This document shows, in pieces, positions 55,818 through 63,129 of a DNA stretch of 64,000 bases (position 1 is its first letter; each line of letters begins with the position of its first letter). The notes below the pieces were generated by a model. It worked only from the letters and a program-made list of their open reading frames with translations. It was not told where the DNA came from and ran no database searches. The DNA is taken from positions 930,001 to 994,000 of the forward strand of contig NZ_JAERQG010000002.1 of the NCBI RefSeq assembly GCF_016734805.1, in the 5' to 3' direction. The DNA is from Marivirga atlantica (GTDB lineage: Bacteria > Bacteroidota > Bacteroidia > Cytophagales > Cyclobacteriaceae). A program made the position numbers and the translations under genes.

Positions 55818-56231
55818 ATGAAAACGTTAGAGCAAATGACAAACGAGCAGCTGACTTATCTGAAGCAGAAATGGTCGGCAGAGGCAAAAGAGTTGGATAG
55901 AGACATTGTACGATCAGAAGTACGCTTGACTAGCAGGCTATCCAGACAGGAAATGGACCAAAGCGAAATTGATGCTTTGAAGGTGGACTTAGCCAACGCA
56001 GAAAGTCTGTTGACGCACCTAGTGAACACTAGTGCCCCACAAGAGATGATTGACAAACAGCGTGCCCTGGTAGATAAGATTATGATAGAAGTAGAGACTG
56101 AATCGAAAGGCAGAAATGTGCTGACTGATGAAGAAGCCTATTTACAGCAGGTGGGCATTGATGAGTTGAAATTGCAAAAGCAATACCGCGAAGATAAAAT
56201 CACTGAAATAGACACAATACTTGCGGCATAG
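55818..56231 (+). CDS. Hypothetical coiled-coil protein, 137 aa
   Basis: I recognise no family. The protein is almost wholly predicted helical, with heptad-like spacing throughout (EQLTYLKQKWSAEAKELDRD.., LKVDLANAESLLTHLV.., DELKLQKQYREDKITEID). No Cys, membrane segment or signal peptide. It shares a leader motif and probably a transcript with the XRE gene. It might bind that regulator or be a structural partner (inference). Confidence 0.65.
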   Translation: MKTLEQMTNEQLTYLKQKWSAEAKELDRDIVRSEVRLTSRLSRQEMDQSEIDALKVDLANAESLLTHLVNTSAPQEMIDKQRALVDKIMIEVETESKGRNVLTDEEAYLQQVGIDELKLQKQYREDKITEIDTILAA

Positions 56232-56487: not shown

Positions 56488-57042
56488 TTATTTCTTGTTA
56501 AAGGTTTTGTCTAATTCCTTATATAATGTTAATGCGTTATGAAATTCATATTTGATCTTTTCATATAAGTGATTGGCTATTATACGTACAGAAGCTCTTT
56601 CTTCGGTTGTTAATTGAGGGTAAGCAAATTCTCCTTCACCCAAATGTTTTCGAATTCTTGTCCACCTATCAAAGAATTTATCTTTTTCATTATTCTCTTT
56701 ACATATGAATGATAAATGATCTTCCCATGAAGTATATGTTTTATCTTCCTTCTTAGTTCTTGAATTACATTTTGCGCAAACAGGAACTACATTTCCAGGG
56801 TGGTGTAATCCATATTCGGATCGATTGAACATAATCAAGTGCTCCATTTGTAATTTTATTCCTGTAGCACTACAATATGCACATTCATTTTTGAAAATAT
56901 TGTGTTTAATCTTTTCCCAATCTCTCTTTCCTCTTCCACTGCCAGTGTTGAAACTGCTTCCCAAATAATGTTCACCCAAACTAGTTAAAAATGCCCTAAC
57001 TGCGGTATTAGCAGCATCCGCTGGTGTGTTATAAATTGACAT
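56488..57042 (-). CDS. HNH endonuclease of a restriction-modification operon
   Basis: 184 residues. Zinc-bound HNH core: CAYC (C54, C57), EH at 67-68, the HHPGNVVPVC segment (H80, H81, N84, C89) and C92-N93. The remainder is helical. Its start overlaps the end of the cytosine methyltransferase gene by 14 nt, so it is the likely restriction partner of that enzyme. It is last in the four-gene operon that also encodes the GHKL and receiver-like proteins. The recognition sequence is unknown. Confidence 0.85.
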   Translation of the reverse strand: MSIYNTPADAANTAVRAFLTSLGEHYLGSSFNTGSGRGKRDWEKIKHNIFKNECAYCSATGIKLQMEHLIMFNRSEYGLHHPGNVVPVCAKCNSRTKKEDKTYTSWEDHLSFICKENNEKDKFFDRWTRIRKHLGEGEFAYPQLTTEERASVRIIANHLYEKIKYEFHNALTLYKELDKTFNKK

Positions 57043-58198
57043 TCTCTGAGAGGGAAAAGTTAGTAAGTGTTCTTCTTATTTCTGTAGCAATCAGCTCTGC
57101 AATTGCAGTTGGAACACCATTACTAATTAGTTTAAATTTTGGTGTAAGAGGCATAGAACTTGGTAAGATATATTCGTCTGGTACAGTTTGGAGCCTTAAC
57201 CCTTCTCTCACAGTAAGCCTTCTGGCTTTTGTAGGATGAAGATGAACCTCATTATTTCCATAAGCTACAGTTGGACTATATCTAAATCTATGTAGTCTTT
57301 TAAATGACTTCCTATTTGTATCACCCTCTTCAATTTCATAAAACCTAGATGATTTTGGCGAAAAATGCTCATTTTGATTTGGAAAGTCATTATTTAATCC
57401 TGAAAAAGCATGTTCCACACATAATTCAGCATGTCCGTTTAAATGATGTGTGGATGTTTGGTCACCAAAACTCCATTTTTTTGGCCAACCAAACCTTTTA
57501 GGTTCTATATATTTAGGTTTAGGCCATCTAAATATTAACTGATTATCTTCCGAAGACTTTAAAACCAGATTATTTTTCTCTAGCTTATATCCCCTTCTTT
57601 TTAATGATCTAACTATTTGATTTTTAAAAGCAACAAGTGCTATTCTTGGTCTGTCTTGCGGGTAACCATATTCCAATACATTAAGTAAATCATGCCATAC
57701 AGTGTATCCACTTTTTTCAATGTCCTTAACAAAAGCATTAAAAGATTCTCTGTGCTTTTTAGTTTTGTATAGTCCTTCTACATTTTCAAAAAATAGGAAA
57801 TCAGGTTTTATAGATTTTACAATTTTAAAATAACTATATATCAGACGTCCTCTTTCACCTTCTATTCCACCATTTTTTCCACCAATAGAATAATCCTGAC
57901 AAGGTGGCCCTCCAATAATACCGGTTATACCCGAATGTTCTTTTCTTAATCTAATTTGTTCTTTTCGACAAGATGCATCAACAGCTCTTGATATTTCTTT
58001 ATGAGCAATCACTTTACTTCGAATGTAATAATTGTCAGATTTTTCGAAATACTTTTTCAATCCAAAATTATATGCCTCTATAAAATGAGGTTCTATTTCA
58101 ACAGCTTCTTTTATTTGGAAACCCTGATTGATAAAACCTAAATCAAGAAATCCACCCCCAGAAAAAAGTGATAATATATCAAATACCTGGTTTTTCAT
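57029..58198 (-). CDS. DNA (cytosine-5-)-methyltransferase
   Basis: 389 residues with all main C5-MTase motifs: I (LSLFSGGGFLDLGF, 9-22), IV GGPPCQDYS with catalytic C100, VI ENV (138-140) and VIII QDRPR (181-185). A variable target-recognition region follows and the C-terminal motif X includes SNGVP. It methylates a specific cytosine and so protects host DNA, or marks it for the HNH enzyme. It overlaps the 766-residue gene upstream by 20 nt and the HNH gene downstream by 14 nt. Confidence 0.95.
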   Translation of the reverse strand: MKNQVFDILSLFSGGGFLDLGFINQGFQIKEAVEIEPHFIEAYNFGLKKYFEKSDNYYIRSKVIAHKEISRAVDASCRKEQIRLRKEHSGITGIIGGPPCQDYSIGGKNGGIEGERGRLIYSYFKIVKSIKPDFLFFENVEGLYKTKKHRESFNAFVKDIEKSGYTVWHDLLNVLEYGYPQDRPRIALVAFKNQIVRSLKRRGYKLEKNNLVLKSSEDNQLIFRWPKPKYIEPKRFGWPKKWSFGDQTSTHHLNGHAELCVEHAFSGLNNDFPNQNEHFSPKSSRFYEIEEGDTNRKSFKRLHRFRYSPTVAYGNNEVHLHPTKARRLTVREGLRLQTVPDEYILPSSMPLTPKFKLISNGVPTAIAELIATEIRRTLTNFSLSENVNL

Positions 58199-60479
58199 AT
58201 TTATTTTTTTTTAGAACTCCTTTGATAAGCTGAATTTTTAAACTTTTATCAAATATTATGACTCCCATTTTTAGCTCCTCAATTGTTAATTTTTTAGTAG
58301 CATATCCTTGATCATTTAAAAAAGATTTTATTTCACCACTATCTATTATTTGAAAATTAGGGTTATTATTTGGTTTTACTTCTCCAAACAAATCATTGAA
58401 ACTAAATTCGGTTTTTTGGAGATATTTACCATCATCAATTCGATATTTGTGATTTAAATGATATTCTACGTGAGACTCTTTAATCAACTTATAATGAGTA
58501 ATACCATCCAAAGAAAACTTATCCTCGATGTTAAATGATAAAAGATCTTGATAGTCTATAAGAGCTGCTTGAACATCAGATAATCTGAAAAACTCCTTAC
58601 CCTTTGCAGACCATAAGTCAAAGTTTTTTAACTCTCTTGTGGAATCATCGTCTCCGGGAAGCTTGAATCTTAAAGTAACTTTTCTTATCAGTTCAGGAGT
58701 GTTATCAATAAGATTTAAGTCAATTCTCCCTTTATTATTAAGATAATTATTGTATAGAGAATCATAGTATCTTCCCTTTAATCTACAGACTCTTTTTATA
58801 TTGTAACTAAACTTATCATTTACCTTTTTAACTTTTGTTATTGGAAAATCAATAGGGTCATTAAATGCCATCGAACTAAGCAACTCATCAATGTTAATTT
58901 CTGCCAATTTCTGATACCCTATTTTTAGATTCTGATAATATCTATCCTTATTTTGGGGTAGAATTAATTTGATATCATTTTCCAATTCCTCGTAAGGATT
59001 TATAATGCAATTGCCTTCATCATTAAACATGCACAAGTCTAAAACTGAAAAGTCAGCATAGAATAAATTAGGAGTAGAAATTTCAATTTGAATAGTTTTG
59101 TAATTATTATCTGAAATGTCAAAAAAATTATTTATAAATACGAATTTGTTTCCTCCGCTTAATCTTACTTCATATTTTTCACTTGCAATTTCTTGAGATA
59201 ACTCTATTTTAAACAACTCAGCAAGTTTGGCCTTTCTGGTATTGTCTTTTCTTAATAAAGTATCGCATAGTTGTCCTAGAATCATATAGTATGAACCATC
59301 TATTTGCCAAATATCTCCTGGAGCAATCGGTAAATATTTTTTATTTACATTATAATCAAAAATCTCAAAAGTATTTATCTTCAAGAGTTCATCTCCTATT
59401 TCTGATGTTTTTGGATGATCATCCAAATAATTTTGTCTAAAAAAGGCTGATAATCCGGCAATGAATTTAAAATCTTCAACTTCATGATCATCAAATTTCT
59501 TTCGCTCAGCTAATTCAAACCAATATTTTGCTGCATCATAAGGAGGTATACCTTCACTATGTGATTCTTGTATAATATGTTTAATGTTCTTTTGATTCTT
59601 TAAGACTAAAGTAAAAGCTTCTTCAGTGCTAACATTTTTTTTATTTCGTATAGAATTGAATACTTCGGCAAATGCAGACTGAGCAAGACTTTTGGTCATT
59701 TTTTCAATAACACGTTCTGATCCTTTAGTAATTTCTTCGATAAAAAAATCTTCATATTCTAAGAGTTCTTTTTCAACAGAATCTGGTCTACTTGTATATA
59801 AACAAGCAATAAATCTCAATTCGGGATTATCTTTGAATTCACCTACTAAATCATCAATAATAAAATCTTTTCCAACTTCATTTGCACTACCAGTACTTAA
59901 TGATTTATCAATTATAGCTAAACAGAAATTGCTATTAGTCCTTTTTACACTTTTCTGAATATCTTTGTAAAAAGGCTCTTTATCTGCTCCAGGTGTTTGT
60001 TTGTAGTATAAAATTTCAACTTCCTCTATTTTCTTTAATTCAGTAAGTAATTCGTTATAATGAGTTTCATTTATACTTAAATAAATTCCATATTTAGCAA
60101 AACATGCCTTTATAGATTGGGTTTCACCATCCTCTTCTATTAATCTCTCAAATTCATCATAGACTTCATTTTGTAATAATTCTTCTTTTCCTAGTTTCTT
60201 TAAGAATCTTGCTAAATGTCCTCCAGGCAGAAAATTCTGAACATCTTCACTATTAACAAGAAGTGGGTTAAATTTCTCATCAAAATCTATTATTGCTTTA
60301 CCAAGTGAACTAAAGCTAAGGGTATCCAACTCTTCAATAATAGATTTTTTTACACGATCCTCCGATAAGCAAAATTCAATCAATAATTTAATAGGGTCGT
60401 CTATATAAGTAATCTCATCTTCGATTATTATAATAGTATATGCTTTAAGACTCTTTATGAGATCATTTAACTTACTCAT
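58179..60479 (-). CDS. Large protein with a split receiver-like domain, defence operon
   Basis: 766 residues, no known full-length family that I recognise. A receiver-like pattern is visible: hydrophobic strand with acidic residues TIIIIEDE (15-22), FCLAIIDKSL with D191, ACLYTS with T229/S230, and EEITKGS with K252. Between the first two lies an unusual insertion of about 150 residues. The remaining 500 residues are mixed alpha/beta without recognised motifs. It overlaps the GHKL kinase-like gene upstream by 8 nt, so a kinase-receiver pairing is plausible (inference). It also overlaps the methyltransferase gene by 20 nt. Confidence 0.6.
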   Translation of the reverse strand: MSKLNDLIKSLKAYTIIIIEDEITYIDDPIKLLIEFCLSEDRVKKSIIEELDTLSFSSLGKAIIDFDEKFNPLLVNSEDVQNFLPGGHLARFLKKLGKEELLQNEVYDEFERLIEEDGETQSIKACFAKYGIYLSINETHYNELLTELKKIEEVEILYYKQTPGADKEPFYKDIQKSVKRTNSNFCLAIIDKSLSTGSANEVGKDFIIDDLVGEFKDNPELRFIACLYTSRPDSVEKELLEYEDFFIEEITKGSERVIEKMTKSLAQSAFAEVFNSIRNKKNVSTEEAFTLVLKNQKNIKHIIQESHSEGIPPYDAAKYWFELAERKKFDDHEVEDFKFIAGLSAFFRQNYLDDHPKTSEIGDELLKINTFEIFDYNVNKKYLPIAPGDIWQIDGSYYMILGQLCDTLLRKDNTRKAKLAELFKIELSQEIASEKYEVRLSGGNKFVFINNFFDISDNNYKTIQIEISTPNLFYADFSVLDLCMFNDEGNCIINPYEELENDIKLILPQNKDRYYQNLKIGYQKLAEINIDELLSSMAFNDPIDFPITKVKKVNDKFSYNIKRVCRLKGRYYDSLYNNYLNNKGRIDLNLIDNTPELIRKVTLRFKLPGDDDSTRELKNFDLWSAKGKEFFRLSDVQAALIDYQDLLSFNIEDKFSLDGITHYKLIKESHVEYHLNHKYRIDDGKYLQKTEFSFNDLFGEVKPNNNPNFQIIDSGEIKSFLNDQGYATKKLTIEELKMGVIIFDKSLKIQLIKGVLKKNKYEKPGI

Positions 60480-63129
60480 CTTCCTCTAAACTATTTTGCA
60501 TCCTTAACTCGAAAATATAACGATTACCATAAATATTCGTGATTGGAAGAAGCTCTATTTCTCCTCCAAAAGACTTTAAAAATTGTCGAACTATATACAA
60601 TCCCATGCCTCTTCCACCATTCTCGCGTCCTGATACAAGTTCATTAAAAAGAGTATGCTGATATTTTTCTAACACACCTATTCCTGTATCTTCAAGCTGT
60701 ATTGTATTGGAAGAAGTTGTTTTTATAGTGATTTTATCACCTCCGCTTTGGATATATATGTTGTCTTTTTTTGCTAATTTTTGACGTTGCCTAATCCAGT
60801 AAATTGAATTGTCAATTAGATTATAAAATACATGCAAAAGCGCTCCTTTTGGTACTTCCCAAGTATTGCTGACAGAACTTATATCAACATCCACTTTGTG
60901 TCTATTTAATCTAAATTTGAATCTTTCTACAATAATTGCTAATTCCTCTTTGACATCTGTAGGTATTAAAGCTCTATTTCCTTCATTAGTAATAAAAGTT
61001 TTTTCTAAGAAGGAATAAAATTTATCTAAATCACCCATACGTTTATACAGGTGATTAAACTTGTTTTTTATTGGAAGGAAATGAGAGTTATTGATTTTAA
61101 AATCTTCATTATCTAGCAAATGATTTTCAATCATATTAAAATGCTCATCGTATTTTTCTGATTCTTCTTCAGAACTACTCAATAAAGAGTGCAGTTCATG
61201 AGTAATGATTTCAGTTACCAGCCCATTTGCCATAAGTTTATAATTGTTATAGGCCTCAGTTTTAATCCTTATTTGATGTTGTTTTGTAGCTTCAAGTAAT
61301 TGATTTGCGCTTTTTAATGACCATTGTGTATCATTGAGATTTTTCTCAAAATTAAGAGTTGCTGGTTCAAGTTTTTCAAAAACCTTTTTAACAGATTTAA
61401 TTTTATCATCTGTATCTAAATCGATGTTGTCTTTAATTGCTGAAATTGCTTCTTGAATTGCTGCTAAATTCTTTTTTGCTGCAGAAAGTATTTCTTTAGA
61501 TTTATCTACCTCATCTTGTATCTGCTCATCTGTATTTTCAGGCAACCAACCTTCAAGATCCAAAAAATTCTTAGTTAATTCAACAGCTGTCTTAGTATAA
61601 CCTGGAGAGAAAATTTCAAGAATTTCACTCAATACAATTTGAAGTGAATCAGCGTAAACATTTTGAGTTAAATGTTCTCTAGAGCTGGTTTCATATATAT
61701 AGTTTTGTTTAGGATCATTAATATTTATAAATCCAATTACATTACCTAGTTCAAAACGATAAAATTGTTGCCCAGTAGTCCTCTTTTGTTGGAGTTCTAA
61801 CCAGTCATTATTCTTATTACCTATCGTAGCTACTCTATATCCATTCCTATATAGTTTTATGCCATTATTTGCATCAAGAAATGGCCTAATATCATAATTC
61901 ACACCTATTGAATCTTTTATATAGTTATTATCAACAGCCGACCTCCTAGCCATGCTCATTAATGTATTGTCTCTCTTATATGTGTGAATTTCTCCTTTTA
62001 TAGGAGCGATTTTTATAAGTAAATTTTCAAAATCTTCAGGAAAAATACGATTATTTTTTTCAGCTTTTTTCTTCCAATTCTTAATAAGTTCTGAAAGAAA
62101 AAATACCTCTCTAAGATTTTTAGAATAGTGATCTTTATATTTTAATAGAAAATTTTTGTACTCTTTGGAATTTTTTTTCCAATCTTGATAAAGAACTTTA
62201 CCTAATTCGCGATGATGAATTCGTTCTACAAACCAAGGACGTAATTTCATCTCTAAGTTAAATTTCAAATCTTTTGGAATTCCTTCTTTATCCAAAACTA
62301 GCTCTGTATTAAACGAATGAATTGACTCTGCTACGTTTAACGCATGGTAATTAAAGTCTAAAATAATTCCCACACTATCAGCCGATAATTCCAAATTAAT
62401 TGAACTCTTTTTTTGTTCAAACGGTGAATACAAAAAGCTGAGAGCAGATTGTAATTCATCCTTTACAAAAAGTGAATTACCGAGTGACCTTCCTTTATTA
62501 CCAAATAAATCTTCAATTTCGAATACTTCTCTTTGCTCATAATATTTGTCAATCTGAACTGGATTATCCTCGGTTCCTAAAAGCCATAACCTTGTATAAG
62601 AACTATTAGTAGTTCTATTTGATACCCATTCTGGGGCATCAAATTCATCATTGTAAATAAAATCTTTCCAAGAAACTTTAACAATGTTGACAATGGTACT
62701 ATTTTCAGTTGAAGTTTCTACAATTAAAGTTGGGGCAATTCTTTGAGCCGCAAGTCTACCTATACCCTTATCTCCTAAAACAATTTCATCTCCGTCTTTA
62801 GCTTTTTCTCTTTGTTCTTTTTTAACAGTAGAACCTACTTCAAAAAAACCTTCTTGAAGTTTTTTATAATTCATCCCAACACCATCGTCTTCAACAATGA
62901 TCAAACCATTTAGGCTAGTATTATTAAATATTTCATAAAGAACCTCAGGAATAGGTTGTGTTAACCTGGCCTTATCTATTCGATCAAATCCTGATAAAAA
63001 TTGAATACTTACGTTTGACGCTTTTGCGTCATATGAATTTTTAATTAGTTCAGTAATTGCAACTTCGTCTGTGGTAATCAATTCATACCCTAAATGCCTA
63101 ATTATTCGAGGATTATAAGTAAATTTCAT
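60472..63129 (-). CDS. Double GHKL ATPase: MORC/Hsp90-like N-terminus and histidine-kinase-like C-terminus
   Basis: 885 residues. N-terminal GHKL domain: ELIKNSYDA (27-35, N31), DDGVGM (81-86) and GDKGIGRLA (119-127), of the Hsp90/MutL/MORC kind. The middle part (about 520-630) is coiled coil. Near the end comes a DHp-like helix with THELHSLL, then a second ATPase: FYNLIDNSIYW, LEDTGIGV and NGGRGMGLYIVRQFL. The C-terminal part therefore looks like an active histidine kinase. No membrane segment is present, so it is a cytoplasmic sensor. First gene of the tightly overlapping four-gene operon. It may sense infection or DNA state and signal to the receiver-like protein (inference). Confidence 0.8.
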   Translation of the reverse strand: MKFTYNPRIIRHLGYELITTDEVAITELIKNSYDAKASNVSIQFLSGFDRIDKARLTQPIPEVLYEIFNNTSLNGLIIVEDDGVGMNYKKLQEGFFEVGSTVKKEQREKAKDGDEIVLGDKGIGRLAAQRIAPTLIVETSTENSTIVNIVKVSWKDFIYNDEFDAPEWVSNRTTNSSYTRLWLLGTEDNPVQIDKYYEQREVFEIEDLFGNKGRSLGNSLFVKDELQSALSFLYSPFEQKKSSINLELSADSVGIILDFNYHALNVAESIHSFNTELVLDKEGIPKDLKFNLEMKLRPWFVERIHHRELGKVLYQDWKKNSKEYKNFLLKYKDHYSKNLREVFFLSELIKNWKKKAEKNNRIFPEDFENLLIKIAPIKGEIHTYKRDNTLMSMARRSAVDNNYIKDSIGVNYDIRPFLDANNGIKLYRNGYRVATIGNKNNDWLELQQKRTTGQQFYRFELGNVIGFININDPKQNYIYETSSREHLTQNVYADSLQIVLSEILEIFSPGYTKTAVELTKNFLDLEGWLPENTDEQIQDEVDKSKEILSAAKKNLAAIQEAISAIKDNIDLDTDDKIKSVKKVFEKLEPATLNFEKNLNDTQWSLKSANQLLEATKQHQIRIKTEAYNNYKLMANGLVTEIITHELHSLLSSSEEESEKYDEHFNMIENHLLDNEDFKINNSHFLPIKNKFNHLYKRMGDLDKFYSFLEKTFITNEGNRALIPTDVKEELAIIVERFKFRLNRHKVDVDISSVSNTWEVPKGALLHVFYNLIDNSIYWIRQRQKLAKKDNIYIQSGGDKITIKTTSSNTIQLEDTGIGVLEKYQHTLFNELVSGRENGGRGMGLYIVRQFLKSFGGEIELLPITNIYGNRYIFELRMQNSLEEDE

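Follow-up and report, generated by a model that had tools for sequence, protein, structure and literature searches.

Pairs of a histidine kinase-like protein and a receiver-like protein, HEF_HK and Response_reg_2, were described in 2021 as companions of restriction-modification (R-M) genes (PMC8011034). Over 644 regions, 91.6% of these pairs were linked, type II R-M genes and C5 cytosine methylases were enriched around them, and HNH_2 and Vsr were frequent nearby. The proteins were predicted to be soluble, a kinship to paraMORCs was proposed, and a role in signaling cascades controlling R-M systems was offered as speculation. Here, we analyze an operon of this kind in Marivirga atlantica (Bacteroidota), located on the minus strand at positions 56488 to 63129 of a 64,000-nucleotide stretch of contig NZ_JAERQG010000002.1 (the window) and predicted to encode a double-GHKL histidine kinase (gene 1), a receiver protein (gene 2), a C5 cytosine DNA methyltransferase (gene 3), and a small HNH nuclease (gene 4).

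As in the HEF_HK/Response_reg_2 regions, a protein with HATPase_c_3, a kinase region, and HATPase_c stands beside a receiver-like protein, with a C5 methylase and HNH or Vsr genes near; in the window these features are HATPase_c_3, a DHp histidine, and HATPase_c in gene 1, an adjacent Asp/Lys receiver, and the nearby C5 methylase. An initial annotation of the window had proposed an undescribed system, which is wrong because PMC8011034 describes the same kind of pair. In contrast to the published pairs, gene 1 has no PF19191 match and gene 2 no PF19192 match (E value up to 1), and since both Pfam profiles fail, the operon lies outside these families as filed. PF19192 was likewise unmatched in the source genome, in a search that gave no match in any control genome either, and its cut-off was exceeded in 8 of 395 genomes of the phylum. 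Judged by its architecture, the operon is nonetheless predicted to work like HEF_HK/Response_reg_2 pairs. The breadth of the family, a link to Ssp phosphorothioation systems, a shared C-terminal domain, and a pattern of kinase clades by modification chemistry appear to go beyond PMC8011034, in whose main text the terms phosphorothio, SspB, and SspC have no occurrence. Among the papers listed in searches of the openly accessible literature, no other publication on the kinase-receiver pair was found, bioRxiv and subscription journals being outside this scope. PMC10663231 names HEF_HK, and the available texts of PMC12137116 (a GHKL-nuclease Shedu protein), PMC7824862 (on a divergent, NAD enzyme-linked receiver), and PMC12839542 leave such a pair undescribed.

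ParaMORC proteins of R-M operons, described in 2008, join GHKL and S5 domains to other C-terminal parts, and DNA looping by proteins of this type was proposed (PMC2292703). They share with gene 1 an N-terminal GHKL ATPase, here with its catalytic motifs present, and operons that also contain methylase, Vsr, and HNH genes, but differ in that no histidine kinase core is mentioned in the passages that describe them and the word receiver does not occur in the main text of that article. Two further systems invite comparison. In 12 of the 77 loci studied below, relatives of SspB, SspC, or SspD lie no more than four genes from a kinase-receiver pair like that of the window, whereas the window carries a C5 methylase instead. 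Known restriction arms of Ssp systems are SspE and SspFGH. Detocs is a two-component architecture in phage defense, with effectors that carry an ATP-cleaving nucleosidase domain; the receiver-nucleosidase fusion of Detocs is not found in gene 2, which has no Pfam match.

Operon organization and main proposal

We propose, with a probability of about one half, that the operon is a mobile DNA-modification system in which a cytoplasmic phosphorelay would serve as the decision module, gating restriction by the modification status of the DNA. Its genes are as follows.

60472..63129, minus strand: gene 1, double-GHKL histidine kinase, 885 amino acids (open reading frame [ORF] list, Pfam, alignments, PDB profile match)
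58179..60479, minus strand: gene 2, predicted receiver-effector protein, 766 amino acids (no Pfam match; residues, profile link, model)
57029..58198, minus strand: gene 3, C5 cytosine DNA methyltransferase, 389 amino acids (PF00145, TIGR00675, identity to relatives)
56488..57042, minus strand: gene 4, small HNH nuclease, 184 amino acids (HNH profiles, motif positions)

The coordinates bear out the four minus-strand genes of the initial annotation, with overlaps of 8 nucleotides (genes 1/2), 20 (genes 2/3), and 14 (genes 3/4); the fixed stoichiometry read from these overlaps does not follow. The residues then named are all present, i.e., N31 and the histidine of THELH (H644) in gene 1, D191 in gene 2, and C100 in gene 3.

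To place the operon among its relatives, a collection of 84,980 species genomes (by its own description) was scanned with a kinase alignment, which yielded at least 587 candidates, 558 of them relatives. The loci studied here are the best 80 of at least 558 relatives, ranked by likeness to gene 1. A long double-GHKL gene followed by a gene on the same strand is carried by 77 of the 80, the remaining three (L117, L127, and L137) being without a long kinase ORF.

Gene 1 combines an ATPase of the MutL/MORC type with a histidine kinase core

Pfam places HATPase_c_3 at residues 22-151 of gene 1 (E value, 2e-16) and HATPase_c at 763-876 (6e-14). The N-terminal GHL/MORC-type ATPase holds E27, N31, D34, D81, G83, G85, and K121. 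A glutamate four residues before the N-box asparagine, as in E27/N31, is a trait of GHL ATPases (MutL, Hsp90) and not of histidine kinases. A middle region separates this domain from the DHp helix with its predicted acceptor, H644, and the C-terminal kinase ATPase domain holds N770, N774, D814, G816, G818, G841, and G843; gene 1 thus has the acceptor histidine and the CA domain of a two-component kinase. All 97 aligned double-GHKL proteins, a count in which L032/L081 (one locus) and L076/L077 are each included twice, retain H644, N770, N774, D814, G841, and G843. E27, N31, D81, and K121 are present in 95 to 97 of the 97, a figure partly built in because the scan patterns derive from these motifs. 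The kinase alignment shows a further conserved region at about residues 423-486, after the GHKL domain.

Both ATPase domains were found in all 56 kinases scanned with Pfam. A 56-kinase profile (alignment A7, the window protein plus 55 of the 77 kinases) matched the DHp and CA cores of solved histidine kinases, namely, LvrB (E value, 8.6e-38), 3a0r (1.4e-37), and a FixL chimera (6.9e-35), with the H644 column aligned to the histidine of their HE motif. The N-terminal domain weakly matched GHKL profiles of restriction enzymes, among them BbrUII/HgiDII with 53.8 bits, far below the cut-off of that model. Pfam, the match to solved kinases, and the invariant residues support the histidine kinase module that had been noted besides the MORC/MutL-type ATPase, and gene 1 is accordingly assigned, from its sequence, as a MutL/MORC-type ATPase joined to a histidine kinase core.

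Gene 2 is a predicted receiver with a conserved C-terminal domain

Gene 2 matches no Pfam family at E values up to 1, and PADLOC, NCBIfam, and PHROGs gave chance-level models only. It has the residues of a receiver: E20-D21-E22 after strand 1, D191 after strand 3, T229, and K252 after strand 5. Orthologs keep the acidic run (E-N-D in one relative), D191, a threonine or serine at 229, and K252. Apart from the start methionine, only D191 and K252 are invariant in a single MAFFT alignment of 76 highly divergent receiver proteins that cover the partner types. Pfam detects Response_reg in 8 of these 76 proteins (best E value, 5e-10) and Response_reg_2 weakly in 2. In these wider samples, with an E value limit of 0.01, 7 of 56 kinases are thus recognized by PF19191 and 2 of the 76 receivers by PF19192. 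Eight shorter receivers forming a sister group match solved response regulators, natural ones from an E value of 1.6e-9. In hhalign, this set aligns with the gene 2 orthologs (probability, 87%; E value, 4e-6), and D191, K252, and the C-terminal motif fall in matching columns. Another profile comparison (A3 versus A2) was discarded, as the window protein was contained in both.

An AlphaFold model of residues 1 to 600 built from 24 sequences (predicted local distance difference test [pLDDT], 78; predicted template modeling score [pTM], 0.70) shows strands in the order of a receiver, the first and second being separated by a helical insert; an earlier model from six sequences was poor (pLDDT, 56). 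Foldseek searches against the PDB and viral models returned nothing at E values up to 0.001, receivers included, and neither did sequence comparison with solved structures reveal a convincing relative of gene 2. Because the structure searches gave no significant match, the receiver call rests on the residues, the strand order, and the transitive profile link. On these grounds, we assign gene 2 as a receiver protein followed by a conserved domain, and its receiver-like label is retained.

After the receiver come a helical linker (257-373), a C-terminal domain (about 380-585), and a remainder (585-766) that was poorly predicted in the earlier model. The C-terminal domain carries the motif GDIW...Q-x-CD-x3-R (G388, D389, Q403, C405, D406, R410), and N379, G388, D389, Q403, and C405 are invariant in 24 long receivers. 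Among the 66 receiver proteins of at least 340 amino acids and 396 control ORFs, the pattern G-[DN]-[ILVM]-[FYLWVI]...C-[DN] was present in 45 and 3, respectively, and a looser pattern in 53 and 32; both patterns were drawn up after inspection of the same receiver proteins. With training sequences and two copies excluded, the top nine matches of a hidden Markov model (HMM) of the domain, built from the 24 long receivers, were all receivers (116 to 9.9 bits; E values, 1e-34 to 0.04), and the tenth-ranked was a non-receiver. The domain has no match among solved structures by sequence or fold, and Pfam found no DNA-binding family in gene 2 or the receiver proteins scanned. Because its polar residues are invariant, they suggest a ligand-binding or catalytic site.

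Direct searches with gene 2 retrieved itself alone among 395 genomes of the phylum, nothing in plasmids, and no relative in viral contigs (a single-protein scan, which reaches close relatives only); its relatives were reached through the kinase scan only. Of three plasmid records with such kinases, two annotate the receiver partner as hypothetical protein and one as cytochrome P450. The latter gene, on a Hymenobacter plasmid (L176:8560-10356), scores 97 bits with a receiver HMM and 161 with the output-domain HMM, and by these matches its cytochrome P450 label is an annotation error.

The kinase-receiver pair is linked to DNA-modification genes

A receiver start pattern was matched by 72 of the 77 genes next to the kinase, compared with 64 of 313 ORFs used as controls. 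Of the five genes that failed the pattern, L090, L098, L129, and L145 are receiver-like by eye, and L100 has a miscalled start. In a set of 20 regions, the next gene was receiver-like by eye for 18 of 19 double-GHKL genes, L047 being without one. Adjacency and residue conservation, two of the points on which the initial annotation had made its proposal hang, thus both hold for the kinase-receiver pair (72 of 77 loci; 97 of 97 kinases; 76 of 76 receivers).

Modification genes were labeled in jackhmmer searches, for which the window and sampled loci supplied nine probe proteins. At least one lies within three genes of the pair in 62 of the 77 loci, directly upstream of the kinase in 48. Of the ORFs no more than three genes from the pair, 86 of 410 are modification genes, compared with 2 of 473 at greater distances (Fisher P, 1.5e-28). 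These counts support the suggested tie of the pair to DNA modification. A first pass with a radius of four genes gave 25 C5, 21 N6/N4, 12 Ssp phosphorothioation, 5 Eco57I-type, and 14 other loci, the last including L096 and L107 with Eco57I/N6 methylases and L123 with an SspG gene. At 10 of the 21 N6/N4 loci, the same-strand run (gaps of at most 150 bases) consists of methylase, kinase, and receiver alone, with genes outside the run unscreened for nucleases.

On a quick kinase tree, in which L128, L112, and L096 are long branches and the partner labels of the cyanobacterial loci, L096, L107, and L123 were assigned by hand, partner type changes 12 times, compared with 42.9 times on average after shuffling; none of 200 shuffles gave so low a number. 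The tree and alignment A6 omit L077, a near copy of L076, and L100 for its start. Organisms of many phyla are intermixed on the tree, and kinase clades track modification type as far as these labels go. The window is placed in a starred clade of six members, of which five have a C5 methylase and one lies on a contig that ends, adjoined by a 19-member N6/N4 clade.

Several loci show variations on this arrangement. SspB/SspC/SspD relatives followed directly by the double-GHKL kinase and receiver occur in L083:3733-13351, L088, L097, L111, L115, L140, L143, L145, and L146; PADLOC identified SspB, SspC, and SspD in L083, SspB is unlabeled in L088, SspF-type genes come next in L097 and L145, and no search was aimed at SspE. 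L113 and L115 resemble SspF/G/H loci by gene size only, and a 975-amino-acid HNH, STAND-like ATPase, and TPR protein directly follows the pair in L113:13498-16422, near Ssp genes. A conserved gene of about 250 amino acids stands between receiver and Eco57I-type methylase in L118:12256-14906, L116, L139, L147, and L148, and L140, an Ssp locus, has one that follows the receiver; the copies scanned (L118 and L140) match no Pfam family. In L044:12259-12891, a 210-amino-acid gene that by eye resembles an endonuclease III/MutY-type glycosylase follows the receiver, in the position that Vsr takes at some other C5 loci. On the Rhizorhabdus plasmid L177, AbiE genes adjoin the pair on the opposite strand.

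The recurring unit includes the methylase but not the HNH nuclease

Gene 3 is a C5 methylase with its catalytic motifs, as in type II R-M systems (PF00145, E value 5e-55; TIGR00675; PPCQ with C100, and ENV at 138). Gene 4 scores 20.9 bits with HNH against a Pfam cut-off of 21.4, and its motif residues are C54-x2-C57, E67-H68, and C89-x2-C92-N93. Within the best 80 of at least 558 relatives, the closest kinases are from Mucilaginibacter (47% identity), a Lentisphaeria metagenome-assembled genome (MAG) (39%), an Intestinibacillus MAG (35%), another MAG (35%), and Enterococcus (33%), with the next at 27%. A gene 2 homolog follows the kinase in all five (phmmer E values, 5.9e-21 to 4.5e-95). A C5 methylase 38 to 39% identical to gene 3 is adjacent in the four relatives whose contig continues. 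It follows the receiver in Mucilaginibacter, which is also the arrangement of the window, and precedes the kinase in the remaining three.

The window HNH occurs in none of the four assessable relatives. The Mucilaginibacter locus has a Vsr gene and a 359-amino-acid protein that belongs to no clear family; an HNH_2 protein is found in one MAG, and the remaining relatives have ParA-like or DUF5677 genes. Against the ORFs of the 80 loci, phmmer with gene 4 gave one weak match (L113; E value, 9e-4), and no R-M gene is annotated in the stretch viewed beside its sole plasmid match (Vibrio). Since the methylase is found in four of four relatives and the window HNH in none, the recurring unit is, to judge from these loci, kinase, receiver, and C5 methylase, with extra genes interchangeable. 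The four-gene unit of the initial annotation thus survives in its first three members, the methylase changing sides, and loses its HNH part. Gene 4 adjoins the methylase without co-occurring with it in relatives, and is best regarded as a putative accessory or restriction nuclease rather than a conserved member of the unit.

The G+C content of the operon is 30.3% versus 37.0% for the rest of the window, and its distribution is patchy, gene 2 being present in none of nine congeneric genomes searched. Low G+C and absence from congeners make it likely that the operon is a horizontally acquired mobile cassette. Comparison of the insertion site with congeners was uninformative, both flanking genes lying about 50 to 60 kb apart in the two genomes compared (G395 and G396). 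That homologs of genes 1 to 3 adjoin one another in other phyla argues against a chance assembly. Beside the operon, at window positions 55818-56231, lies a plus-strand ORF of 137 amino acids with no Pfam match above cut-off.

Discussion

In the scheme that we favor for the Marivirga operon, the C5 methylase would mark host DNA, while the N-terminal ATPase of the kinase, like MutL/MORC DNA clamps, would read the state of DNA, most simply unmodified or invading DNA. ATP-driven dimerization would alter autophosphorylation at H644, from which phosphate would pass to D191, and the phospho-receiver would then switch its own C-terminal domain and, here, the HNH nuclease, leading to attack on the unmodified DNA or the infected cell. 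The output is probably exerted at the protein level rather than transcriptionally. The lack of a constant nuclease, with N6/N4 loci reduced to methylase, kinase, and receiver, suggests that the pair may carry an effector role itself. It need not be the only cutter, because SspFGH coexist with it; the idea that the pair replaces the restriction enzyme was toned down on account of the loci with SspF, SspG, or SspH beside the pair (L097, L105, L123, and L145; not every Ssp locus was scanned).

Several observations weigh against a phosphorelay that gates restriction, the coexisting SspFGH genes among them. No labeled modification gene lies within three genes of the pair in 15 of the 77 loci. Six of the loci without such a gene nearby are a cyanobacterial version (L124:8998-12735, L103, L121, L130, L133, and L144) consisting of the kinase, a receiver of about 233 amino acids, and a gene of about 338 amino acids that is MBL-fold (metallo-beta-lactamase) in L124, the sole copy scanned. 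In L136:886-5405, AbiEi/AbiEii toxin-antitoxin genes stand directly upstream of the pair. The inactive-receiver family iREC matches 1 of the 76 receiver proteins, and the failure of Foldseek to return any receiver points the same way. Furthermore, the N-terminal ATPase motifs owe part of their conservation to the scan design, the HNH is not conserved in related operons, and the signal, the output, and the role in defense are all inferred.

The best-surviving alternative, which we nevertheless consider unlikely, is that the pair regulates modification genes, setting the level or activity of the methylase (and HNH) by DNA or nucleotide state with no role in restriction. This would be in line with the speculation of PMC8011034 on signaling cascades controlling R-M systems, with the coexistence of SspF/G/H restriction genes and the pair, and with the runs devoid of a nuclease gene at N6/N4 loci. 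Against it stand the missing DNA-binding family in the receiver proteins scanned and the invariance of N379, D389, Q403, and C405 in 24 sequences, which resembles a binding or catalytic site rather than a helix-turn-helix. Quite improbable is a reading of gene 1 as only a MutL/MORC-like ATP-driven DNA clamp in a restriction complex, the kinase half and the receiver being relics or scaffolds. The GHL catalytic motifs, the weak BbrUII/HgiDII match, and the DNA looping proposed for such proteins (PMC2292703) would fit this role, but relics would not be expected to retain exactly the phosphotransfer residues, as H644, N770, N774, and D814 do in every kinase aligned and D191/K252 in every one of the divergent receivers. 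An ordinary type II R-M pair of C5 methylase and HNH with two unrelated genes caught in its operon, a reading invited by the adjacency and 14-nucleotide overlap of genes 3 and 4, is considered very improbable, given that the methylase recurs with kinase and receiver and not with this HNH, and that modification genes are so strongly enriched beside the pair.

To conclude, the kinase-receiver family to which the Marivirga operon belongs is large, little studied, and often found beside DNA-modification enzymes, and PF19191 and PF19192 cover only a corner of it in our sample. Its receiver partner, mislabeled or listed as hypothetical in three plasmid records, holds a conserved domain without a match among solved structures. 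A tentative and somewhat doubtful generalization of the phosphorelay scheme is that modification systems of at least four kinds, C5, N6/N4, Eco57I-type, and SspBCD, share a plug-in immune module, in which the ATPase-kinase would read whether the mark is present and the phospho-receiver, through an effector domain not recognized before (GD...C[DN]), would fire restriction or suicide. If the scheme is true, a phosphate signal that can be switched, and not a constitutive nuclease, would decide whether unmodified DNA is attacked, and a single decision module would have been reused with chemically unrelated DNA marks.

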